From Mycoplasmatales bacterium (GTDB lineage: Bacteria > Bacillota_I > Bacilli_A > Mycoplasmatales > Metamycoplasmataceae), in NCBI GenBank assembly GCA_013215715.1, contig JABSQT010000004.1, positions 57,674 to 121,673 of the forward strand: a stretch of DNA of 64,000 nt. The letters run 5' to 3'. Position numbers and translations under genes: made by a program. Below the pieces are notes generated by a model. That model did not search any database. It had not been told where the DNA came from and saw only the letters and a list, made by a program, of their open reading frames with translations. Below are positions 1 through 44,927 of the stretch, piece after piece. Each line of letters opens with the position of its first letter. Within the stretch, counting starts at the first letter, position 1.

Positions 1-10
1 GTTATGTCTT

Positions 11-90
11 AGTAAGTTTATTAGTATTAATATAAAAGAAAAAGAAAATAAGTAAGTTTATTAGTATTAATATAAAAGAAAAAGAAAATA
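11..90. repeat. Perfect 40-bp tandem direct repeat
   Basis: The 40 bases at 11-50 are repeated without change at 51-90, and a partial third copy (TAGTAAGTTA) follows. The unit is AT-rich and carries no reading frame. It lies upstream of the structured leader of the ftsZ-containing operon. Its role is unknown; it may be a recent slippage duplication. Confidence 0.9.
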
Positions 91-97
91 TAGTAAG

Positions 98-433
98 TTA
101 AAGGTAAAGGCCAAGAGAAAAGGGAAGACCATATCCATTAACGATAGTATAGGACTTATAAATGAATATATAAGTAAGTTATAAATAAAAACAAATAAAA
201 AAATTAATACCCTAAAAGAAATAATTTAATCCTAAATAAAAAAAACAAAAACAAAGACCAAAGCCTTTGCCTTTAAGGGGCGCAGCCCCTTGAGGTAAAA
301 TGTGAAACATTTTGTTTTCAAAGAAAACGTCACCTCAAGGGAATTTTATGATAAAATTCCAGCTTTCCGGCCATTTTGGAGGCGCGACGCGTTTTCCATA
401 ATATAAGCATTATAACTCAAAAGTTCGGAAAGC
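98..433 (+). promoter_or_regulatory. Structured 5' leader of the ftsZ-containing operon
   Basis: This region has no gene, but several perfect helices can be drawn. Hairpin 275-281/285-291 is GC-rich. A 9-bp helix 288-296/332-340 encloses two hairpins (297-302/308-313 and 314-319/323-328), forming a three-way junction. Hairpin 340-348/352-360 follows. An 8-bp helix 362-369/426-433 encloses hairpins 378-385/389-397 (one bulge) and 398-402/409-413, a second three-way junction. This last element ends 8 bases before the Shine-Dalgarno sequence AGGAAGGAG (442-450) of the first gene. Bases 98-111 can also pair with 263-276. I recognise no known riboswitch class, and regulatory function is inferred from structure and position only. 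Confidence 0.45.
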
Positions 434-454
434 ACAATATTAGGAAGGAGTAAA

Positions 455-2608
455 ATGAAGAAAAAGAACAAGGTGGTGCTCTCTATGGGTACTATCGCAG
501 CTGTTGTAATTCCTACAACAATCGTAGCAGCTGGTATTGGTTCTAAGACAAATTCTATCAATAATATAAAAGAAAATTCTTTATATACAGGGTATAGTAA
601 AAGTCTTAACTTGTTTAGTGGTACAGTGGGTGAAAACGCAAGACCATTACTTCAAGGTACGAACAAAAGCATCACCTCTGGCTTCAAAGGACAACTTTTT
701 GAAGATTCTAGAGGGAATCTTTGAGCGCTATCAAATAAAAATCCATTACAAGTCTTAAGGCACGATGCACTCGAGTGGAAAGACGCTGAACATGGAAGTC
801 AAGTTACAAACGGATCATACGGACAAATCTATGAAGATTCCAAAGGGGATCTTTGAGTTATCAGTAGTTCTGGAATTCAAGTTTTGAGAGTATCAGAAGG
901 TAAAACTGAATGAGAAACACAATTTGAAGGTAATCAAATAACAAATGGTGAAGGTGGACAAATTTTAGAAGATTCTGAAGGGAATATGTGAGCAATTGCT
1001 AATTATCATTCTCTACAAGTATTGAGAAAAGGTAGCACCAGATGAATGGTAGCTGCAGATGGAAATGAATTATTAAATAATAATTTCCATTCTAAACTTT
1101 TTAAAGATTCTAAAGGGAATCTTTGAGCAATGTCTTTCAATCATCAACTGCAAGTATTACGTAAAAATAATACTAGATGAGAAAAAGCAGGTCGTTATGG
1201 AAGACATATCACCCCAGATAATACAACTGCTTCAGGTTTTAATGCAAATGGAAAAATATTCGAAGATTCTAAAGGGAATCTTTGAGTTGGTGGTTCAAAC
1301 TATCCATTAGAAGTATTAAGAGCTGGTGAAGTAACTTGAGAAATTGTTGGAGGATCGAATCCTATAATAACAAATTCAGACGGTCTTCTTATTGACGAAG
1401 ATTCTAAAGGGAATCTTTGAGCAGCAGGAAGTAATTCAAGACTATTAACACTCAAAAATGGTGAACAAATTTGAGCATATGCTGGACATGGAAGTGCAGT
1501 ATATGGTGGAGAATCTGGAGAGATTGTTGAAGATGATTTTGGAAATCTTTGAATAATGGGTGGTTCTACCGCGCTACAAGTTCTAAGGCATGACAAAGAA
1601 AAATGAGAATATGCTGGGAACGGAAATAATATTGAAAATTTTAATGTTGGATGCATCTTTAAAGATTCAAAAGGAAATCTTTGAACTATGGGTAGAGATA
1701 CAGCTCTACAAGTATTGAGAAAAGGTTCTGAAAAATGAGTTGATAGAGAAGCAGAGAAAAAAGTCGTTTCATTAGCTAATGAAGAGCAAAAAAATATTAA
1801 AAATAAATTATTCCCTGGTGGGATACAGGATGCTTCAAATAAAGCTAAATTTTCACGTAAAACTGCGGCAGAAATTAAAGCATTAGTTGAAAATGATCCC
1901 AAACAATTAAAAAATATATTAAATATTGATATATTAAATTTGGGTTCGCATACGAAAGTAAAAAGTATGGAAATACTAACTGAAGATGGAGGAATGAATT
2001 TCAAATTTGAAATATCTACAATTTCTGCATCTAACCCAATTCAATCGTTTGAAGCTAAGGTTACAACCTTAACTGAAAAACAAATTTTGGATTCTGCAAA
2101 TAGTAAAATTCAAAACAAAGAACAATCATTTGTTGAATCTAAAATCAAAAATTTTGACACAACACAAGTTTCTAAAAATGCAAAAGCAACTAAAAAGAAG
2201 GCAGTTGATATTGTAAGGTCAATTAATGACGATATTTTTAAACTTAAACAAATTCTAGGTTTAGATGTAAACGACTTCATTAAAGGCACAACGTCTGCAA
2301 TTAATAAAATCAAATTAACATCTAAAGATGGAGAAATTCAACTTTCAGTAACTGTTTATACACCTGGTGTAACACAACAGTATATTAATGTACCTGTTGC
2401 AGCAGCTATTGAAACAATGACTAATAAAGAAGTTGACGAATACAACAAAAAAACCAATTGAGGTGGAATTATTGGTGGTACTCTTGCCGGGCTTATTATA
2501 CTTGGTGGAATATCAATAGTTCTATATAAAGTTGGTAAACAAATTCAAAAAAGAAGACGAGACAAATTTCAAAATAAATTGGACTCGAATATAAAAATAA
2601 AAAGATAA
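455..2608 (+). CDS. Membrane-anchored surface protein with eight propeller-like repeats
   Basis: This is a 717-residue protein with a strong ribosome site (AGGAAGGAG) 4 bases before the ATG. Residues about 7-27 are hydrophobic (signal peptide or anchor; no lipobox Cys). Residues about 50-430 hold eight repeats of 44-53 residues, each with an ED-S-KGNLW-like motif followed by LQVLR and a Trp. This resembles the Reg_prop beta-propeller repeat of sensor ectodomains. Residues about 458-650 hold two copies of a helix-plus-strand domain (KTAAEI...LKNILNIDIL; KKAVDIV...LKQILGLDV) that recurs in the protein encoded at 3722-5023. A second membrane segment lies at about 669-690, followed by a short basic tail. 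The predicted topology is a large outside region with a small cytosolic tail. It lies 31 bases before ftsZ. Function is unknown; ligand binding or adhesion is inferred. Confidence 0.85.
701..1684 (+). repeat. Eight in-gene repeats encoding the EDSKGNLW-type motif
   Basis: The motif codons begin at 701, 833, 968, 1103, 1262, 1397, 1529 and 1661, spaced 132, 135, 135, 159, 135, 132 and 132 bases, so every unit keeps frame. The DNA core AAGATTCTAAAGGGAATCTT is nearly the same in several copies and is itself an inverted repeat (AAGATTC/GAATCTT). Such near-identical in-frame repeats could recombine and change the number of blades. Confidence 0.9.
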
Positions 2609-2639
2609 ATCATAAAAGATAAATCAAAAAGGAAAAAAT

Positions 2640-3695
2640 ATGAAAAATTCAAGTAAAGATTACGAAAATACTTTAGTAAATATAAAAGTTATTGGAGTTG
2701 GTGGTGGTGGTAATAACGCTATTACTGATATCCGTAAAAGAGGAGTTGGTGGTGTTGAATTCATGATCGCCAATACAGATGAACAAGATTTAGCGAAAGT
2801 TCCAAAAGAAACTCAAAAAATCAAATTAGGAAAATTCAACGAAAGAGGTTTAGGAGCTGGTGCTAACCCAAACATTGGTAAAAAAGCAGCTTTAGAATCT
2901 GAAGATGACATTAAAGAAGCATTAGAAGGTACAGATATGGTTATCGTGGTTGCCGGAATGGGTGGTGGTACTGGTACAGGTGCTGCACCAGTTATTTCAA
3001 GAATCGCAAAAGAAATGAACATTCTAACACTTGGTCTTGTTACAACACCATTTGAAACAGAAGGTCAATTAAGAGCAGATAACGCTGAACGTGGTGTTAA
3101 AGATCTTAAAGAAAATGTTGATTCATTAATCACAATTTCAAACGAAAAATTAAACAGTGTATATGGTAAAAAATCACTTACAAACGCATTTAGTGTTTCA
3201 AACAACATTATGCACAGAACAGTTAAAATGATTGCTGACTCAATCAACAACGTTTCATTAATTAACATCGACTTTGCCGACGTTAAGAGAATCGTTAAAA
3301 ACCAAGGTACAGCTATTGCCGGTACTGCAATTATTAGAGAAGGTGAAAACAGAGCCATGAGAGCTGCTGCTGCTGCCGTTACTGATCCAATTCTTGAATC
3401 AACAATCGACAACGCACAAGCTGCCATCGTTAGTGTTTCAGGTTCTTCATCAATTACATTAGAAGAAGTAAATGAAGCAGTTAAAACAATTCAATACCTT
3501 GCAGGTAAGAAAACAAACATTATCTTCGGTGTTACTATAAACGATGATCTTAAAGATGACGTTATGGTTTCAGTTATTGCTACAGGTATAACAAGATTAG
3601 AAAAAGTTCAAGGTTTCTCAGAAAAATGAGCTGAAAAAGTTATTAAGAGAGTTAAAAAAGAAGACAAGCCAAAAAAAGCTAAGAAGAAGAAATAA
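2640..3695 (+). CDS. ftsZ: Cell division GTPase FtsZ
   Basis: This is the tubulin-like GTPase that polymerises at the division site. The 351-residue product shows the N-terminal nucleotide-binding loop (GVGGGGNNAI), the tubulin signature GGGTGTGAAP near residue 105, and the T7 loop with NIDFADVK. One tryptophan near the end is coded by TGA; reading through it adds 22 residues. The usual conserved C-terminal peptide that binds FtsA and other membrane tethers is not visible; the protein ends in a lysine-rich tail. The gene is not beside mraZ, rsmH or ftsA as in many bacteria. It sits between two genes encoding a shared repeated domain, 31 bases after one and 26 before the next. Confidence 0.97.
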
Positions 3696-3721
3696 TTATA
3701 TTTCTTTAAAGAAAGGAATAT

Positions 3722-5023
3722 ATGGAAACTAATAATGAGACTCATGAATATGAAAACAACAATTCTGAGTTTGAAATTCAAGAAGAAATCTTCTTGTTTA
3801 GTAAGAGAGAAACCTTTGAAGAATTCGTAGGTGAAGAAACAAAGGAAAACAGCCATTTATTATTTGCAAAAAGAGTTCAATCTTTTGTAAATATTATTGA
3901 TTGAAGAAAAATTACAGATGCAGTATTAAGTAAATTCGGAACATTGAAAGATTTATTACACAATGTAGAAGAAAATTCTATTACAACAATATTTGGAATT
4001 AATTTCTATCAATTACAAATACCAAAGAATACTTCCTTAAGTTTAAAAATGAAAATACTTAATAAGTCAATATTAAAAGCAGGTTTTTTCTTAGAGGTAG
4101 GTAATTTAAGTTATACTGATAAATCAATTATCGAACTCGGAGAAATACAATTAGAAAGTAAATTTGATCTAACTGAAAATGATGATTTAACTATACATAA
4201 ACTAGAGAACTTTAATGTTACACAAGCAAGCATAAAAGCAAAATCCCTTAACAAGACCGCTGCGGCAATTGTTAGCTCAATAAAAGATGTTAACAGCTTA
4301 AACGAAATTCTAGGAGTAAATCTTATGAGTTGTATTGTCGGCGATGCTGAAATTGTAAATGTTAAAGCAACTAGTGAAAGTGGAAAAATCAAAATTAAAA
4401 TAGTCATATTGCCTGAGGGCAAAGGTGATGAATACATGGATATAACTTTACCAATAATTAAAACTTGAAAAGATGAAAATATTTCTCACTCACAAAACCA
4501 TCAATCACTTGCTGATATAGAACAAGTTGGAATTTGAAATAGTATCAAGAATATAGATACAACTGATGCTACAAAAGCTGCTAAAGGTCTCAATGAGAAA
4601 GCTAGCGACATCATCAGAAAAATACATAATACAGCAACGCTTAATGAAATTCTTAGAATTGATTTAAGCAAGAAAATTAGTGGTAGTACAATAATCACTG
4701 AAATTGATCCAAGTTGTGACACAAAAGGTAATATAGCTATTGATATTTCAATGAATACTTTGGGTGCCAAATACCCAGATAGAAGATTAACAATTTTTGT
4801 TAAGACTTGAACTGATAAACAAGTTAAAGAGATTGAAAAGGTTATTGAGAAGAGAGGTAGTGCTCAAAATTGACTAACTAAAACAATAATATTAAGGAAA
4901 AAACATAAGTTTAGTAAGAAAAAGCCAAAAGAATGAAAACGCGTTACTACTAAACAAAATGAAAGCGATGATTTTTCAAATAAACTTGGTGATTTTATTT
5001 CAAAGAAAGAAAACGAGAAATAA
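3722..5023 (+). CDS. Soluble protein with three copies of a domain shared with the propeller protein
   Basis: This 433-residue protein has no signal peptide or membrane segment and begins with an acidic stretch. The ATG follows an AAAGAAAGG ribosome site. Residues about 60-150 (degenerate), 163-248 and 275-365 hold repeats with the pattern D/N-T-T/Q-A-x-KA-x-LN-KTAA-x-IV-x-SI-x-LNEILG-I/V-DL, followed by strand-rich GKIKIKI-like sequence. The same domain occurs twice in the propeller-like protein encoded at 455-2608. It loosely recalls the mycoplasmal lipoprotein-associated domain (Lipoprotein_17), but I could not test this. The C-terminal 70 residues are basic. Being apparently cytosolic and next to ftsZ, it may link FtsZ to the membrane protein; this is inference. 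Confidence 0.8.
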
Positions 5024-5024
5024 A

Positions 5025-5462
5025 ATGCCAATATATAAAGAAATGAATAATAAAAAGAGAATGATCAAAATTAAAAATAAGAGACTTCTTTTATTAGGTC
5101 TTACATCTATAGCAACATTAACTACAGTATTTTCTGTATCTAATGTAACTAAAGTTGAAGATAAAACCATTAATAGTATGCATGCCAGTTATTCGCATTC
5201 AATTAATAGTATTTATCAAGATCAAAAGGTGATTCAAGCTGTTGATTATAAAAAGGATACTTCTACAAAGAAAACAATTCAAAAGAATCAACATCAAAGT
5301 AATCCCAATAAAAAACAAAATGCAAAATGGGCTATACCTGTTTTGATAACAATTGTCTTACTTTCTGTTTCTTGTCTGGGTTGATTATTGTTTACAACTA
5401 GTAACTCAAAAAATAAACCTAAGAAAAGAGAGAAGAAAATAAAAGGACAAAAAATAAAATAA
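5025..5462 (+). CDS. Small protein with two membrane segments, last gene of the ftsZ cluster
   Basis: The product is about 145 residues, and I recognise no family. It has a basic N-terminus, a hydrophobic segment (LLLLGLTSIATLTTVFSVSN, about residues 19-42), a polar Lys/Gln-rich middle, a second membrane segment (WAIPVLITIVLLSVSCLGWL) and a Lys/Arg-rich tail. This repeats the topology of the propeller-like protein at 455-2608 on a small scale. The sequence after the first segment (NSMHASYSHSINSIY) also resembles NSLYTGYSKSLNLF there. The ATG at 5025 lies 1 base after the preceding stop; ATGs at 5043 and 5061 are alternative starts with similarly weak ribosome sites. One Trp is TGA. Confidence 0.7.
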
Positions 5463-6029
5463 ACATTTAAATATATAAATATGAGTATTTGTATCAGACG
5501 TTGCGGCAGAATAGCGACCCTCACGCCTGTCGCAACGGTGAGCATTATAAATACAATTACTCAATTGAATTAATTTATTCATAACCCTCTAGAGTCAATA
5601 CTTCTCCCGAAATTGTATAAAGACCAAGGGGTAATATAACATACTTTTTATAGAAATACTTTTTAAATACTTAAACACATACAAACTTAATGCTCGATAA
5701 AATTCTTGCTGAAACATTCATTTCATTCGATTTATTAGTTTATAACATATAATTTTGGCAAGATGTATGAGGGTGTGTTAATATGATATTTTATTAACAA
5801 TTACCTGTTTGGAATCTCCTTTCATTCAGGTATAAAAATATAATTAAATTTGTGGCATTTGATATATCATTGGCATCTACAACTATGTTGTAGAGATGTA
5901 TCAATATAATAATATAAATAAATTTAATGATGGTGATTAAATAATTTTATTCATCATTAAGCGCATATTCAACTTTTGTTGGGTGTGTGTTTTTTTATAT
6001 CATTTTATATATTTCAAAGTTATGCATTA
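5463..6029. other. Gene-free region with several strong inverted repeats
   Basis: No reading frame of note was found on either strand. The stretch lies between convergent genes. It contains an 11-bp GC-rich stem 5499-5509/5527-5537 with a 17-base loop, inside a possible closing helix 5482-5487/5558-5563. It also holds 5802-5807/5827-5832, a long hairpin 5860-5868/5895-5903 with perfect inner stem 5876-5883/5887-5894, and a 9-bp stem 5924-5932/5952-5960. A structured RNA is possible; I see no rnpB or 6S RNA signature. Confidence 0.4.
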
Positions 6030-6030
6030 A

Positions 6031-6055
6031 AAAATACTGATGTTTTCAGTATTTT
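6031..6055. terminator. Bidirectional Rho-independent terminator
   Basis: A 10-bp stem AAAATACTGA (6031-6040) / TCAGTATTTT (6046-6055) is followed by T residues on both strands. It lies between the converging ftsZ cluster and the GNAT gene. Confidence 0.8.
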
Positions 6056-6077
6056 TCTGTTTCATTATCTATGAATA

Positions 6078-6533
6078 TTAATTCTTAAGAATGAAATATA
6101 TATCTTTTTTAGTTTGTTTCTCTATTTCAAATCCACATTTCTTTAAAAGCCCTTGTGAAGCTTCATTTCTTTTATCAACAACTGCTACAATACTCTTACC
6201 TTTATGTCACCTATAAGCAAAGTTTAAAGCTCTTGTTAAAGCCATAGTACCAATTCCCATTCCTCAATATTCTTTATTAAGAACATAACCCACTTCTACC
6301 GTTGTATCAGTTATATTCATAAAGGTTACTGTACCAATCATTTTTCCATAAGAAACAACTGCAAAAATTTGATCAGAGTTCTTTCTTAATATTTTATTTG
6401 ATTCTTTGGCTTCTTCCTCAGTCTTATAAGGGCCTCATCTTAAAAATTGGGTTGTTTCTGCATCAGAACCATATTCAAACATATCGCTTCAGTCTTTTTT
6501 CTTAAGACGTCTCATTTTAAAATGTTGTGCCAT
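6078..6533 (-). CDS. GNAT-family N-acetyltransferase
   Basis: The 151-residue protein fits the GCN5-related acetyltransferase fold. The acetyl-CoA binding loop is seen in NKEYWGMGIGTMALTRALNF (about residues 94-113), and the beta-strand pattern before it (AVVSYGKMIGTVTFMN, VEVGYVL) is typical. Overall it looks like the RimJ/RimL type that acetylates protein N-termini or small amines; the substrate cannot be read from the sequence. Two Trp codons are TGA. It is the last gene of the rsmI-DUF951 run, 13 bases after the DUF951 stop, and a strong terminator follows. Confidence 0.85.
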
Positions 6534-6546
6534 TGCATATACTCCT

Positions 6547-6741
6547 TTATTTCTTGATTATTGCTTTAACTCTTTTGTGGAATGAAGGACGTTCCATAAT
6601 AATGTAGGTATTTTCAACCGTTGTTGACTTTAATTTAATATCTAAACCTAATCTTATAACTTCTCATTCAATTGTTTTTGAAGGGTGAGGTTTTTTCAAA
6701 GTTATTATAGTTCCTAATTCGTAATCTTTTGGACTAATCAT
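6547..6741 (-). CDS. DUF951 family protein
   Basis: This 64-residue protein matches the small DUF951 family of Firmicutes by its pattern: LGTIITLKKPHPS, then W-V-RLGLDIKLK, then ERPSFHKRVKAIIKK. Usual members carry Cys residues (HPCG and a C-x-x-C-like pair) that suggest a metal site; here those positions are Ser and Thr, so the site appears lost. The start overlaps the end of rsmI by 8 bases, so the two are translationally coupled. Function of the family is unknown. Confidence 0.75.
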
Positions 6742-7411
6742 TTTTCTTTACCTCAAATGCCATAGTATATTCACCCTTAACATTATTTTTTACTTGGTTA
6801 TAAACTTGTTGCACAGTACCTGCATAAGTTTTTTCATGCATTTTAGTTAATTCTTTTGCTAAGAAAACCTTAGTTTCAGAGCCATGAACTTCTTCAATAT
6901 CTAAAAGTGTTGATTCTAATTTATAAGGTGATACATAAGTAATATATGTTCCTTCTTGTAATGCTTTTAATTCATTTTTTCTCTTGCCTGTCTTGGGATT
7001 TAAAAATCCTATAAATGAATACTTAGGTGAAAGACCTGAAATTGCAGCAACAGTAGTTTGTGCTGACGGACCAGGGATAACTTCAATTTTAATTTCTGAA
7101 GCTCTTGCTTGTCTTATGACTTCAAAACCAGGATCTGCAATAACTGGCATTCCAGCATCTGAAACAACTGCAATATTATTTCCTTGTTCTACTAATTCAA
7201 TAATACCTTTTGCTGAATTCTTCTCATTTTTATCATGATAAGCAATTAGTTTTTTACCCATGATTTCATAGTGAGAAAGTAATTTTCTGGTTTGTCTTGT
7301 ATCCTCACAAGCTATAATATCAACCATTTTTAAAGTATTAATTGCTCTAATGGTGATATCTTCAAGGTTCCCTATTGGTGTGCCCACAATATAAATTTTT
7401 GCTTCTTGCAT
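6734..7411 (-). CDS. rsmI: 16S rRNA 2'-O-ribose methyltransferase RsmI
   Basis: RsmI methylates the ribose of C1402 (E. coli numbering) of 16S rRNA in the decoding site, using S-adenosylmethionine. The N-terminal signature YIVGTPIGNLEDITIRAINTL and the ACEDTRQTRKLL motif are present, as is the SDAGMPVIADPGFEVI loop. At 225 residues it is shorter than the usual 275-290, because the small C-terminal domain is missing. The start overlaps the holB stop by one base (TAATG), and the end overlaps the DUF951 start. Confidence 0.93.
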   Translation of the reverse strand: MQEAKIYIVGTPIGNLEDITIRAINTLKMVDIIACEDTRQTRKLLSHYEIMGKKLIAYHDKNEKNSAKGIIELVEQGNNIAVVSDAGMPVIADPGFEVIRQARASEIKIEVIPGPSAQTTVAAISGLSPKYSFIGFLNPKTGKRKNELKALQEGTYITYVSPYKLESTLLDIEEVHGSETKVFLAKELTKMHEKTYAGTVQQVYNQVKNNVKGEYTMAFEVKKND

Positions 7412-8373
7412 TATGCCTCCATTATTCTAAGTATTAATTTCTCTTTTGCTAAATCAAAGTTACCATTATAACTTATGGTTCTTTTAAACTCTCGTAATGC
7501 CTCAATGACAATTGAATAATCAAAATTTGACTCTGCATATTTATTAATTATTTTATCTCTAGAAATACAATATATTTCTTGACCAAGTTTCGCTCTTCAA
7601 ATATCATTTAAAAATATATTCATGATTTCAAACATTAACTTATAATCAGAACGTTTTTTAATAATATTTTCAAACATAATTGGAGCTTCATTTTTATTTA
7701 ATAGAAGTTCTTCCATAAAAAGTGTTATTTCTTTGAAATTAGTAATAAAATCACCTTCATAAGCTTCATAAGCATCTTCTGCATTTATATAGATATTTGC
7801 AAGTACTTTACTGTATTTAGTTAGTACACCCTTTTCAACTATTTGTTCTGAAAGAATTTCGATATTCTTTGGTCTTAATTCAATTGTTTGTGATCTTGAT
7901 TTAATTGTAGTTAGTACACTATTTAAATCATTAGTAGTCATTATTATGAATGTATTTGGTTGTGGTTCTTCAATGAATTTCAATAATGAATTTATTGACT
8001 GTTTATTTGCATTCTCCACATTTTTAATATAAAGAATCTTTTTACCGGCAGATTCAATAGCTGTTTGAACCAAGTGTTCTGTTGCTTTAATAATAAAATC
8101 TTTCTTAATCATGCCTTTTGTTCCATCAACTATTTCTATATCTGCATATTTATCTTCAACAATTCTTTTACAAGGTGAACACTCTCCACATGCCACAACA
8201 CCTCTTTGTGCACAAACAATTGCTCTTAATAAAAGATTTGCTACGGGTGATGTATCAACTCTTTGTTCTGCGGAAATTAAGTATGCATGTGACAATTTAT
8301 TTGATCTCTTTGCATTTCTAATTGTAGAATATGCTATCGGATTTGTTTTTCTTACTTGGTTTTTCATAAACAT
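7411..8373 (-). CDS. holB: DNA polymerase III delta' subunit
   Basis: This is a clamp-loader subunit of the replisome, 320 residues. The N-terminal RFC-like ATPase domain has the zinc module CAQRGVVACGECSPC (C-x8-C-x2-C-x2-C) and the FIEEPQPNTF segment, but no Walker A P-loop, as expected for delta' rather than tau/gamma. A TGA Trp lies near residue 260; the protein then continues through a helical C-terminal domain to the TAA that overlaps the rsmI start. Two close ATGs (8373, 8367) are possible, with no clear ribosome site. The gene order holB-rsmI is standard in Firmicutes. Confidence 0.9.
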
Positions 8374-8452
8374 ATATAAATTATATTGAAAAATAGTAAT
8401 TATGATTTTAATTAATCGAATTCTTTATTCAAAAAATGATAACTAAAATAAA

Positions 8453-8474
8453 AAAATGAAGTGACCTCCATTTT
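8453..8474 (-). terminator. Terminator after the M28 peptidase gene
   Basis: On the minus strand the stem AAAATGGA/TTCATTTT (one G-U pair, loop GGTCAC) is followed by a T-rich run. It ends the peptidase transcript before holB. Confidence 0.6.
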
Positions 8475-8482
8475 AATTATCA

Positions 8483-10054
8483 TTATTTTAAAGTATCTTC
8501 AAATGTTTTCAAACTAATAGAATTGGCTATAACTTTATATATAGAATTTAATTGTTTATCTAATTTCCCTGGATAAACTTTATTTAAGTTTGTGATGGTA
8601 TCCATTTTGGTGTGTCAAATATAACCATTACCTTCTTCCATATATCTTGGATAGCCACCTTCATTTACTCCGGGTGTATTGTATGGACCTCCAACAACAC
8701 CGATTTCTATCTGTTTTTTAGTGGCAAATAATTGAATATGATTTCGATCGAATTGTTTTATTAATTCCATTTTATATTTTTTCAATATTGCACTAAAGGC
8801 TCTTCTATCTGGTCTTGTTTTGCTTGATTTTTCATAGTGTTTTTCAGCAGCCAAGAAATCTTTTTCAATATTAGGTGCAAATTTTATTTTCGTCTTGTTT
8901 TGTTTATATACATTATATAAATCTCACATAGAATATTCATCTATGTGTGTTTTAGGAAATCAAAATACTTTACCATCTGATTGAGCATACCCATCTTTCG
9001 TTCCAGATTTTGAAACTAATGAATAATTTGTAGATTCCATCCCAACAATTGGAATCCCAATTTGATTAAAAGGAGATTCATCAGATATATCTGCTGGCAT
9101 ATCTCCCATTTTGAATTTATGAATGCCTTGAGTTCCTTCTGGGTATTCTGGCATAATCCCAAGATTCATTGCTGTATTTTTATCTCAAAATACTTTAAAG
9201 AAATCTTCTTCACCATTTCTTCCTTTAGAATCAAATGGAGCTTGCTTATCATCAAAACCATGACCCATATATGTAAATTGACCACCTGCTGGAGAATCTA
9301 AATTTAAATAAAATTTAACAGGACCACCATACAAGTTTTTAGTTTGTTGAGTAACTTTATGTTTCATTATATCTTCAACATATTTTAATGAACCAACAGT
9401 CCCCTCTTCTTCTCAATCTCAAAATGCTATTCTTATTGCAAAATTCTGCGGATTATTTATAAAATAATTCGCCAATGCCAATACATCAGCATCACCCGAT
9501 CTATTATCATTTGCAGCATCATAATATGCTTCTGTATCCTTATAACCAGCATGTCTTGCCATGATATCATAATGAGCACCAATCATAATTACTTTATCAC
9601 TATTTTTAGATTTATTTTTAGCTGGTATATCCAATATGACATTTCTTCCTTTATCACTTTGTATTCTTCCATCAGCTAATTTGATAGGTAATGATTTATC
9701 CACATTAAATTCATGAAAATAAACTTGAGGACTTGAACCAGGTTTTGGAGCAGAATCATATCCTTTTGCAATTGTTCCCCCATTTCTTGAAGATATAGTT
9801 TTACTTTTAATAACATTTTTATTGTAACTTTGCAAAGTTTTAACTAATTTATCACCAAATATTTTTTGGTCTTCTGTACCTGCTATATTAGAAAGTTTTC
9901 AATCTCTTAACATAACTAGATTATTGTAACTTTCTGAATTTTTCATTTTATTTTCTTTGTTATTTGCACCACAAGAAATAACACTAACAACTGGGATAGA
10001 TAAAACTGCTAAACTTGTTAATCCACCTCACATAATTTTTCTTTTTACTTGCAT
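8483..10054 (-). CDS. Lipoprotein with M28 metallopeptidase domain
   Basis: The 523-residue product is predicted to be a secreted, lipid-anchored zinc aminopeptidase. The signal sequence (hydrophobic residues about 9-26) ends in VISCGAN, a mycoplasma-type lipobox. The M28 metal ligands can be followed in order: AHYD (H161, D163), AANDNRSG (D183 bridging), WEEEG (about 213-217), LNLDSPAGG and a late WHTKMDT histidine. All look intact, so an active enzyme is likely. It has its own ribosome site (GGGAGG), a terminator after it and one just upstream (tmk), so it is a separate unit placed inside the otherwise conserved dnaX-ebfC-tmk-holB-rsmI order. A role in peptide scavenging is inferred. Confidence 0.88.
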
Positions 10055-10144
10055 CGAACCTCCCTTGATAAATCTTTTAAGATTCAATAGAATTATACAA
10101 CTTGTATATATAAGAATGAAAATTTATAGTAATAGCAAATAAAA

Positions 10145-10160
10145 AATCGCCCATGCGATT
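10145..10160 (-). terminator. Terminator after tmk
   Basis: The stem AATCGC (10145-10150) / GCGATT (10155-10160) with loop CCAT is followed on the minus strand by a run of T. It lies 2 bases after the tmk stop codon. Confidence 0.75.
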
Positions 10161-10162
10161 AA

Positions 10163-10791
<629 letters not shown>

Positions 10792-10792
<1 letters not shown>

Positions 10793-11085
10793 TAGAATGG
10801 CATCCCCATACCTGCTTGTTGAGGAGAAATTGCCGCTTGTTCTTCGTCAATTTTGGCATTAGCTGCGTTCATAGCAATAATTACCATATCTTCTAATGTC
10901 TCAACGTCATCTTCATCAACAAGTGCTTCATTAATTTTTACAGATTTAATAGTTCTATCCCCCATAATAACTATTGAAATCCCTTGTTTTTCAATTAAGA
11001 ATTCTTTTTTATTAAGTTCTGCTTGTTTTGCTTCCATTTCTGCTTGCATTTTTTTTGCTTGTTGCATCATTGCATTTATATTCAT
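10792..11085 (-). CDS. ebfC: YbaB/EbfC family nucleoid-associated protein
   Basis: This 97-residue DNA-binding protein forms a small dimer and is encoded after dnaX in most bacteria. The sequence shows the family's coiled-coil start (MNINAMMQQAKKMQAEMEAKQ), the central VIMGDRTIKSVKINEALVD strand region and the helical end MVIAAMNAANAKI. The ATG at 11085 is chosen because AAAGGAGAAAATT precedes it; the longer frame has no such site. The protein ends in a GMGMPF tail, and its stop overlaps the tmk start. Confidence 0.93.
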
Positions 11086-11101
11086 AATTTTCTCCTTTAT
11101 A

Positions 11102-13414
11102 TTAAGATGAGAATAGTTCTCCAAAGAGATCTTCCCCTAATTTGTGTGCTTTTGTTTTTTCTTGTTCCCCTAATGAAGGAACCATAATTTTTTGTGGTTG
11201 TGGCAGTGAATTTGATTTTGCTAGCACTGTATATCTTTCTTTTACATCTATAAATTGATCTCTTGTAATTGCAAAAACATTTTTTGTTTCTCCAAATACA
11301 TGTTTAACTAATTCTACAAATCTTCTTTTGAATTTAACTTCATTAATTCTTGTACAAATACTTGCATCCTTTGATGACACAAGAATAAAATCTTTACCCG
11401 AAGAAATTAACCTTGCAGAATCTAATAATGATGCATATTCACTATATCTTGAGTTTGCAGCATAAGAAATTATTGAAGTTCATGATTTCTTAATATGTGC
11501 CTGAACCGCCTTATCTGATTGAACTAATAAGTTAATAATATCTGATACAGAATTAGTTACTTGTGTTGGTTCTTGAACTTGTGTTGTTGAATCAGTAGTA
11601 AATAAAGATAATAAATCAGATGGTTCGCTTGTATCATTTGCCATTGGTGTATCAATGGTTTTTGTTTCTTTGTTATTAGTATTAATTTGAATCTCTTGAG
11701 TAGTTGTGATATCTTTCTCAATTTCTTCTGCATGACTAGTTTTTTCTAAGTCAACTGATATAACTTGTGTTGAAGATTCTATTTCTTCCATATCAATTAT
11801 TGCTTCATCTGTTGGTGCTTTTTCCTGTAATTCTTGCGGACTGAATAAATCCGTTAATGAATCTGAAGATTCTTCTGGAACATTTGGTATTTCACCAGTC
11901 TTCTCAAATTGAATATTTTCATTTGGTGCAATAGCCATTTCAATTTTTGGTTCAGAATTTTTCTCAACTGGTTTAGGCTTATTAATAATAGGACTTTCAT
12001 TAATAAAAGGAACATATTTTGGTTGTGTCGGATCATTTAAAATTTCTTTTTTAGGTTGTGAAAGTTGTTCTAGTAATGATTCGCCTTCTTCCTCATTTGA
12101 TAATTGTTGTTCTTCAACTAAAACCTCTTCAACATTTTCTTCTTTTTGAATTTCATTTAATGAACTTGATTCTGAATGCCCATTAATAATAGGTGCTTGT
12201 AATTCAGGTGTTGGTTCTGGCATTGCTATTTCTTCTACTTTTTCTTCAACAACTGGTGTTTTTGTTTCATGAATTGCTGTAAATGCAGGTTCCTTATTTT
12301 CCAATACAGGAGATTTTTTCGGCATGACCGCAACACTCTCGGCTGTTTTTGTTAATTTAAGCATTGCTAATTCAAATACTTGTCTTGGATATTCTGTACG
12401 TGATAATTGAGTAATTAATTCAACCAGTATGTCTAACATGTTATATGCTGAATCAATTGTAATTGATAATTCTTTAACTTGTTCTTCATCAAGAATTTCC
12501 AATAATTTGATTTGCCCTGTTTTATTAAAAATAATGAAATCTTTAATAATATCTATAAGTGACATTGAAAGTCTAGTAAGGTTAATTCCACCATCTATAA
12601 ATTTATTAATTAATGATAATAATCCATCTACATTTTTATTTGCAGCAAAATTAATAATATCCATTTGTGATTCTAAAGAAACAATACCAAATACTTGTGA
12701 AATTGCCTCAAAAGAAATTCCTCCATTAGTATATGAAGATGCTTGATCTGCAATTGACAATGCATCACGTAATCCACCATTAGCTAATTTCGCAATTAAC
12801 TTAATAGAAGAATTATCGTATTTTAACCCTTCTTTATCTAACACTTCAATTAAATGAGATACTAATATTGAATCTTCAACACGTCTAAAGTTAAATCTTT
12901 GTGTTCTTGATAATATTGTTACAGGAATTTTGTGTGGTTCCGTTGTAGCTAAGATAAATATCGCATGTTTTGGAGGCTCTTCTAATGTTTTAAGCAATGC
13001 ATTAAAAGCTCCTTTTGATAGCATGTGAACCTCATCAATAATATAAATTTTATATTTTGCATTTGATGGTGAATATTTAACATTATCTCTTAATTCTCTA
13101 ATTTCAGCGACACCATTATTTGAAGCGGCATCAATTTCAATAATATCCATCGATGAACCTTTTTTTGCTTCCAAACATAATCCACATTTTAAACATGGCT
13201 TTAAATCTTCAGAAAGATTTCTACAGTTTAAAACATTCGCAAACACTTTTGCGGCTGATGTTTTACCAGTACCTCTAGGTCCCGAGAATAAATAAGCGTG
13301 TGATACTTTTTCAGATTTAATGATGTTTTTTAATGTTGTTGTAATATGGTCTTGACCTTTAATTTCATCAAAATTAGTTGGTCTATGTGTTCTATATAGT
13401 GCTTTATAACTCAT
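11102..13414 (-). CDS. dnaX: DNA polymerase III subunit tau (gamma/tau)
   Basis: This is the clamp-loader ATPase of 770 residues. The N-terminal ATPase has Walker A GPRGTGKT (45-52), the zinc module CRNLSEDLKPCLKCGLC, Walker B IIDEVHML and the sensor-1 loop. Domain III follows to about residue 370. A long acidic, Pro/Glu/Ser-rich linker (about 375-640) then leads to a C-terminal tau domain (QAHIKKSW...RDQFIDVKERY) reached by reading TGA as Trp near residue 645. No convincing programmed frameshift signal for gamma is seen. The gene is transcribed with ebfC 16 bases downstream. Confidence 0.96.
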
Positions 13415-43667: not shown

Positions 43668-44246
43668 CTAATTATTTTTTAATATTGCTGTTAGTTCTTC
43701 TTGGAATGTAGCAAGTTTGATTTTTTGTAATTTACCATGCATTGCTATTGAAATATTCCCTGTTTCCTCTGAAACAATAATGGTAATTGAATCAGATTGC
43801 TCTGCAATTCCCATAGATGCACGGTGACGTGCTCCGTATTTGTTGGCGATTGAAGTTTGAGTAATTTTATAATACGTAGCAGCATATTTAATTTTTCCAC
43901 CCTCAATAATTACAGCACCATCATGTAGAGGTGATTTTTTATTGAAAATTGAAATTAATAATGAAGAAGAGATGTTTGCATCAATTACAATACCATCCGT
44001 TCTTAAATGATCTAATTTTTCTTTGTTAGTAATTGTGATGATTGCACCTGTTTTTGTTGCTGATAATTCTTGTGCTGTTTCATATAATTGGTGAATTAAT
44101 CTTATTTGAGATGATGTACCCATTGTGTTGTATTTATTTTTCTTAAATGCTCATTGGATAAACCTAATCATATAAGGTAATAAGATTAATAATGCAAGTA
44201 GTCCTGTACTCACAAGAACTGTTGCAAATATTCCTTGATTTGACAT
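43668..44246 (-). CDS. Diadenylate cyclase, copy 1
   Basis: It makes c-di-AMP from two ATP. The 192 residues have one N-terminal membrane helix (about 10-28) and a DAC domain with both active-site motifs, SPLHDGAVII and GARHRASMG. A single helix plus DAC is the layout of the mycoplasmal CdaM form rather than the three-helix CdaA. It differs from the copy at 44349-44927 by one residue (Ala for Ser in MGIAEQ). It has its own ribosome site (AGGGAG) and lies 102 bases after copy 2. Confidence 0.93.
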
Positions 44247-44348: not shown

Positions 44349-44927
44349 TTAATTGTTTTTTAATATTGCCGTTAGCTCTTCTTGGAATGTAGCAAGTTTG
44401 ATTTTTTGTAATTTACCATGCATTGCTATTGAAATATTCCCTGTTTCTTCTGAAACAATAATTGTAATTGAGTCAGATTGCTCTGAAATTCCCATAGATG
44501 CACGGTGACGTGCTCCGTATTTGTTGGCGATTGAAGTTTGAGTAATTTTATAATACGTAGCAGCATATTTAATTTTTCCACCCTCAATAATTACAGCACC
44601 ATCATGTAGAGGTGATTTTTTATTGAAAATTGAAATTAATAATGAAGAAGAGATGTTTGCATCAATTACAATACCATCCGTTCTTAAATGATCTAATTTT
44701 TCTTTGTTAGTAATTGTGATGATTGCACCTGTTTTTGTTGCTGATAATTCTTGTGCTGTTTCATATAATTGGTGAATTAATCTTATTTGAGATGATGTAC
44801 CCATTGTGTTGTATTTATTTTTCTTAAATGCTCATTGGATAAACCTAATCATATAAGGTAATAAGATTAATAATGCAAGTAGTCCCGTACTCACAAGAAC
44901 TGTTGCAAATATTCCTTGATTTGACAT
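44349..44927 (-). CDS. Diadenylate cyclase, copy 2
   Basis: This 192-residue protein is nearly the same as copy 1 (MGISEQ instead of MGIAEQ) and keeps HDGA and RHR motifs, so it should also make c-di-AMP. Its ATG overlaps the stop of the degenerate GGDEF-EAL gene by one base (TAATG), with AAGGAG inside that gene, so the two are translationally coupled. I count about ten base changes between the copies, nearly all near the 3' end; the middle is identical. Confidence 0.93.

Follow-up and report, generated by a model that had tools for sequence, protein, structure and literature searches.

Repeated cassettes join extra FtsZ copies to variable propeller surface proteins in a Mycoplasmatales genome

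Introduction

FtsZ-related genes have been described beside genes for surface or membrane proteins. In gliding of the Mycoplasma mobile type, the FtsZ-related protein P42 (Gli42) is stated to be translated together with the giant gliding proteins (PMC7052211), and in genome G003 its gene adjoins surface ORFs of 4140 and 1128 aa. FtsZl1 genes sit with vWA, OmpA and GTPase genes, and the C-terminal half of the protein they encode is not FtsZ-like (PMC2875224). Regarding attachment to the membrane, PMC12583498 cites a report that Mycoplasma FtsZ binds the membrane by either end.

Here we analyze a cluster in which an ftsZ gene lies between surface and membrane protein genes in the genome of a Mycoplasmatales bacterium (G000; 953,490 bases). 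The window is the whole stretch of 64,000 nucleotides that was analyzed (G000:C4:57674-121673), and its ORFs were read under code 4. The cassette was found in one species.

Results

Four genes downstream of a hairpin leader

Four plus-strand genes follow each other in the window with gaps of 31, 26 and 1 bases, and the composition proposed in the preliminary description, namely a propeller-like membrane protein, FtsZ, a soluble protein sharing a domain with the first and a small two-helix protein, was confirmed. The first gene (455-2608) encodes a propeller surface protein of 717 aa, with a predicted signal/TM helix (residues 7-25), a Reg_prop propeller, two stalk domains of ~85 aa (1832-2050 and 2168-2392, +), a TM helix (residues 672-690) and a basic inner tail. 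The propeller passes the Reg_prop family threshold (PF07494, 71.6 vs 20.4 bits, 1e-20), and those of its 702- and 710-aa paralogues are below detection. The histidine kinase part of the two-component propeller type is absent, in such a way that propeller and stalk are followed only by the TM helix and the short basic tail.

The second gene (2640-3695) encodes an FtsZ of 351 aa that scores above the NCBI ftsZ equivalog cut-off (TIGR00065, 344.9 vs 295.2 bits), with its tubulin/FtsZ GTPase domain (159.5 bits) and FtsZ_C domain (77.2 bits) both above the curated cut-offs. The third (3722-5023) encodes a 433-aa protein for which neither signal peptide nor TM helix is predicted, carrying two further copies of the ~85-aa domain (4226-4417 and 4568-4789, +) and a basic C-terminal region that ends in a motif common to the cassette proteins. 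The fourth (5025-5462) encodes a 145-aa protein with two predicted TM helices and a predicted outer loop, the positional counterpart of the 178- and 196-aa two-helix proteins of the sister cassettes described below. Its best start is the ATG at 5025, which leaves the 1-base gap; the longest ORF, from 4959, would give 167 aa and overlaps the 433-aa gene.

Upstream of these genes, 89 bases before the propeller gene, lies a leader with nested hairpins and a 75-base core (272-366, +). The only plus-strand terminator-like hairpin found in positions 1-6100 is at 5959-5992, and none was found on that strand inside the unit. An Rfam search of window positions 1-6100 gave no match, and PADLOC returned a weak match of the 178-aa protein and nothing else.

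Five ftsZ genes and an intact division cluster

The preliminary description also held that this ftsZ cluster stands instead of mraZ-rsmH-ftsA and could replace FtsA-type tethers. Neither idea is supported. On contig C2 of the same genome, a complete canonical mraZ-rsmH-ftsA-ftsZ cluster (L006 8208-11998) is intact, with an FtsA homologue and a different ftsZ whose product ends in DDLPAFLRR, so that a replacement of the canonical cluster is ruled out. A normal mraZ cluster elsewhere is what the preliminary description itself named as refuting, and this one refutes the "instead of" part; the window ftsZ stays linked to its surface-protein neighbors all the same, because the ftsZ genes concerned are extra copies.

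The genome has five ftsZ genes, one canonical and four extra, the latter being the window copy, a 556-aa form whose gene stops 604 bases short of the propeller gene of the window, and two copies on contig C1, of which one is truncated where the contig stops. At least three of these four extra copies lie in repeated cassettes with propeller surface proteins. When 320 genomes of the order were compared, none besides G000 had more than two ftsZ matches, and each of the two congeners has a single ftsZ, within an mraZ-rsmH-ftsA-ftsZ order in G001 and of the canonical type in G002.

The gene for the 556-aa form lies just upstream of the window (L007:15855-17525, equal to C4:55854-57524) and resembles a gene fusion. 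At its N-terminus the product carries a DUF2188-like domain (a weak match), and it has a lysine/threonine-rich linker. The same DUF2188-like domain is found alone between pgk and tpiA (G000:C1:236498), and G002 has it in a 258-aa protein whose gene adjoins tpiA and which bears a TM segment at the C-terminus. Between the 556-aa FtsZ gene and the leader there is a short AT-rich tandem repeat (window 10-99, period 40, 2.2 copies). A second, very divergent FtsZ/tubulin-family gene was also observed in family f11 (L079:5875-6933 in G037 and L080:5422-6483 in G032), with conserved neighbors and no propeller gene among them.

In a phylogenetic tree, the extra FtsZ proteins form a single clade on a long branch, nested inside the family (100/99) and weakly joined to the canonical copies of the genus itself (65/67). 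As read from these sequences, the extra copies most likely stem from a duplication inside the lineage, after which their role changed; a horizontal gain is not favored, given the nesting within the family. Closer relatives were sought elsewhere, and a scan of genome contigs gave only ordinary FtsZ proteins (34-53%), while the viral contigs searched gave one match at 26%.

The extra copies keep the GTP-binding GGGTGTG and the T7 motif NIDFAD, and the paralogue is 49% identical to the canonical FtsZ. By contrast, the C-terminal linker and conserved peptide that bind FtsA or SepF are missing from all the complete extra copies. The tails of these three proteins are 27-35 aa long with a net charge of +6 to +10, whereas that of the canonical FtsZ has 78 aa and a net charge of -16. 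In the window copy, the tail (3588-3692, +; net charge +10) contains EKWAEKV and is a candidate membrane-binding or docking helix. Amphipathicity of the tail exceeded that of shuffled sequences in two of the three complete extra copies (p 0.014 and 0.004), the window copy giving p 0.13. A direct tether of the paralogue to the membrane by its tail is plausible by analogy, since Mycoplasma FtsZ is reported to bind the membrane by either end (cited in PMC12583498).

Sister cassettes, common leader and selection

On the minus strand of C1, the genes are arranged in the order propeller (710 aa), ftsZa, 494-, 196-, 178- and 234-aa proteins, propeller (702 aa) and ftsZb. Contig C3 starts inside a third 494-type gene, which is followed by genes for the 196-, 178- and 234-aa types, and we infer that C1 and C3 together hold a tandem pair of one cassette that was split by the assembly. 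The propeller-ftsZ pair thus opens three cassettes, with gaps of 18-31 bases between both genes, and a gene of the 433/494-aa type is seen, or partly seen, after each ftsZ. An assembly echo of one cassette was ruled out, as the tandem propellers are just 64% identical overall.

The 75-base core of the leader is located ~90 bases upstream of the propeller start in all three cassettes. A genome search found the only other full-length copies before the two sister cassettes (C1:2856-2945 and C1:9858-9939; 91-94% identity), together with a 25-base partial match at C3:104966; there was no other full-length copy in G000, and none in the congeners G001 and G002. The leader RNA folds better than its shuffled versions (z = -2.86), and among the five variable positions of the core four are unpaired and one would keep a G-U pair, in such a way that the changes avoid the stems. 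The recurrence of the cassette three times under one conserved leader, and the presence of a common C-terminal motif in non-homologous members (see below), support that these genes form a real unit and make the proposed link between surface and FtsZ plausible; of the earlier proposal, this is the part that stood, while the replacement of FtsA-type tethers and of the mraZ cluster did not.

The two kinds of protein that open the cassettes differ in how they evolve. In the tandem cassettes, FtsZa and FtsZb are 97.6% identical and under purifying selection (dN/dS 0.13, 212 codons compared), and dN/dS among the other extra ftsZ copies is 0.17-0.30. The tandem propellers have a variable outer face (49.7% identical, dN/dS 0.57) and a constant inner end, their last 24 codons, read as the TM end plus the inner tail, being identical in all 24 positions. 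Such a pattern would be expected of a variable outer face that is mounted on an unchanging inner attachment.

At the place syntenic to the cluster, G001 carries a single minus-strand propeller-type gene of 550 aa, so that the cassette may have been either gained in G000 or lost in G001. This lone surface gene, and the fact that loci of this class are prone to duplication and variation, would suit an explanation in which a duplicated ftsZ was caught by chance in a tandem-expanding surface-gene locus and has no functional link to its neighbors. We consider such hitch-hiking unlikely, because the low dN/dS values of the extra ftsZ copies, an identical gene order found three times with a common leader, and the new tails that all complete extra copies have instead of the division tail are at odds with it.

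It is similarly improbable that the paralogues serve an auxiliary divisome, co-polymerizing with the canonical Z ring or regulating it, for example in an alternative form of division or budding, with the surface proteins as markers of the division site. The preserved FtsZ fold, the intact GTPase and T7 motifs and the 49% identity to the canonical protein would be compatible with this role, and archaea have paired FtsZ1 and FtsZ2 with different tethers (PMC12583498). However, one ftsZ suffices in both congeners, and four extra copies, in surface-protein cassettes with diversified propellers and on a long separate branch, are unexpected of a division factor.

A mis-binned contig is also unlikely, as window positions 6079-11894 match G001:C15 at ~85.6% DNA identity in two collinear blocks. 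Between these blocks, which are nearly contiguous in G001:C15, the window contains a lipoprotein-type ORF of 534 aa (8483-10087), indicating an insertion here or a loss there. Further on, two adjacent 192-aa ORFs (43668-44246 and 44349-44927) look identical from their ends and apparently derive from a recent tandem duplication.

A repeated domain and a common C-terminal motif

The ~85-aa domain is carried by the propeller proteins and by the 433/494-, 196- and 234-aa proteins. An AlphaFold2 model of one copy (4547-4816) showed three helices followed by three strands, with a mean pLDDT of 92. In searches with the domain, no consistent Pfam family emerged, and the PDB gave no match by sequence at E below 0.1 and none by fold at E <= 0.001. 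Within the order, it occurs in this genus and G008, with one further, marginal match in G104. This three-helix/three-strand domain is apparently undescribed so far. Many of the genus's surface proteins (L071, L072, L074, L075 and others) contain repeats of it.

Copies of the domain seem to be present on either side of the membrane, because the 433/494-aa proteins have no predicted signal or TM helix; the putative cytoplasmic place of these proteins follows solely from that lack, the domain being found otherwise in exported proteins. Relatives of the 433-aa protein were found in the genus only, and a search of plasmids with this protein gave no match. The AlphaFold model of the full 433-aa protein (pLDDT 41) was too poor for use.

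A second shared feature is the motif D-x-[F/W]-x-x-K-[I/L/V], found within the last 25 residues of the propeller, 433/494-aa and 178-aa proteins and of one FtsZ; the tails of the other FtsZ proteins carry looser forms. In the window, the inner tail of the propeller has it as DKFQNKL (2561-2581, +) and the 433-aa protein as DDFSNKL (4967-4987, +). Among 222 G000 ORFs sampled, 9 had the strict motif within the C-terminal 25 aa, each of these encoding a protein of the cassettes or of the surface; of 55 ORFs sampled from G001 and G002, 0 had it. A related DNA pattern was in excess over controls only in G000 (24 vs 9 matches), the congeners giving 17 vs 11 and 16 vs 17. The motif was defined by eye after inspecting the tails, and its out-of-sample support consists of just two strict cases in unlinked propellers of C3 (L067); for having been chosen in this way, the common tail motif is a lead, rather than a proof, for a possible docking signal. 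Some surface proteins of G000 lack it, and the FtsZ version, [D/E]KW..KV, is looser and may be just a membrane helix. The C3 region concerned (L067:3156-18568) encodes surface proteins without an adjacent ftsZ, with the strict motif in those of 729 and 855 aa and a near match, QDFGSKL, in one of 608 aa.

Discussion

The cluster belongs to a set of three paralogous cassettes centered on an FtsZ paralogue that is specific to the lineage and distinct from the division FtsZ; with moderate confidence, we propose that this paralogue organizes variable surface receptors. The paralogue would polymerize under the membrane, held there by its basic C-terminal helix, by the tails of its partners, or by both. 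The propeller, the 433/494-aa protein and the small membrane proteins would dock through their D-x-[F/W]-x-x-K-[I/L/V] ends to the filament or to a common hub, and the filament could in turn gather variable surface receptors or adhesins from inside the cell, set their position or move them, in attachment, polarity or motility. Division would remain with the canonical mraZ-rsmH-ftsA-ftsZ genes. More tentatively, we propose a surface-dedicated tubulin-family cytoskeleton, in which filaments of the FtsZ paralogue would be coupled by a common C-terminal tail code to diversifying transmembrane receptors, including the unlinked ones of C3, and would give this wall-less bacterium an inside-out anchoring that serves adhesion, polarity or movement.

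With five ftsZ genes in 953 kb, this genome is exceptional among the 320 genomes of the order compared. If the extra copies organize surface receptors, bacterial tubulins would do a job so far credited to other mollicute cytoskeletons, and an FtsZ could be traced, within one genus, as it loses its division tail and gains partners. Direct and testable handles on these questions are offered by the cassette repeats, their leader and the motif of the tails.

Compared with the canonical FtsZ (TIGR00065, PF00091 plus PF12327), the paralogue has likewise complete GTPase and C-terminal domains, GGGTGTG and NxDFAD, and scores above the equivalog cut-off, but it lies outside the dcw cluster, has a short and basic tail, is present in multiple copies and is linked to surface proteins. 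With FtsZl1 (PMC2875224) it shares being an FtsZ-tubulin paralogue that exists alongside an ordinary FtsZ and is encoded with membrane proteins; here, however, the two FtsZ domains are each intact and other partners are present, with no vWA, OmpA or GTPase genes among the Pfam matches of the cassette proteins scanned. According to PMC12583498, a terminal helix of Odinarchaeal FtsZ1 and of Mycoplasma FtsZ can bind the membrane without FtsA or SepF, and the tail described here is comparable, although the putative membrane-binding helix here sits in extra, surface-linked copies.

Gli42/P42 (NF045859) occurs in the same bacterial family, and there too an FtsZ-related gene immediately adjoins genes for surface proteins. 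This likeness could suggest, with the gene arrangement of G003, a gliding apparatus like that of M. mobile, in which the paralogue would take the Gli42/P42 role, a reading that we regard as very unlikely. The P42 model, which also matches canonical FtsZ, gave no match to the window FtsZ at E <= 0.01; no protein of this genus scored above the P42 family cut-off, the sole match in G000 being the canonical FtsZ, below that cut-off. A Gli521-like segment taken from G003 had no match in this genus, while of three positive-control genomes two gave full-length matches and the third a weak partial one. A tree test of the grouping of the extra FtsZ with P42 gave p 0.617, which speaks neither for this grouping nor against it. 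The neighbors of P42 are giant proteins and the P42 sequences read lack GGGTGTG, whereas the paralogues here nest among ordinary FtsZ proteins. On these sequence comparisons, Gli42/P42 appears as the closest precedent in gene context, but as a different thing.
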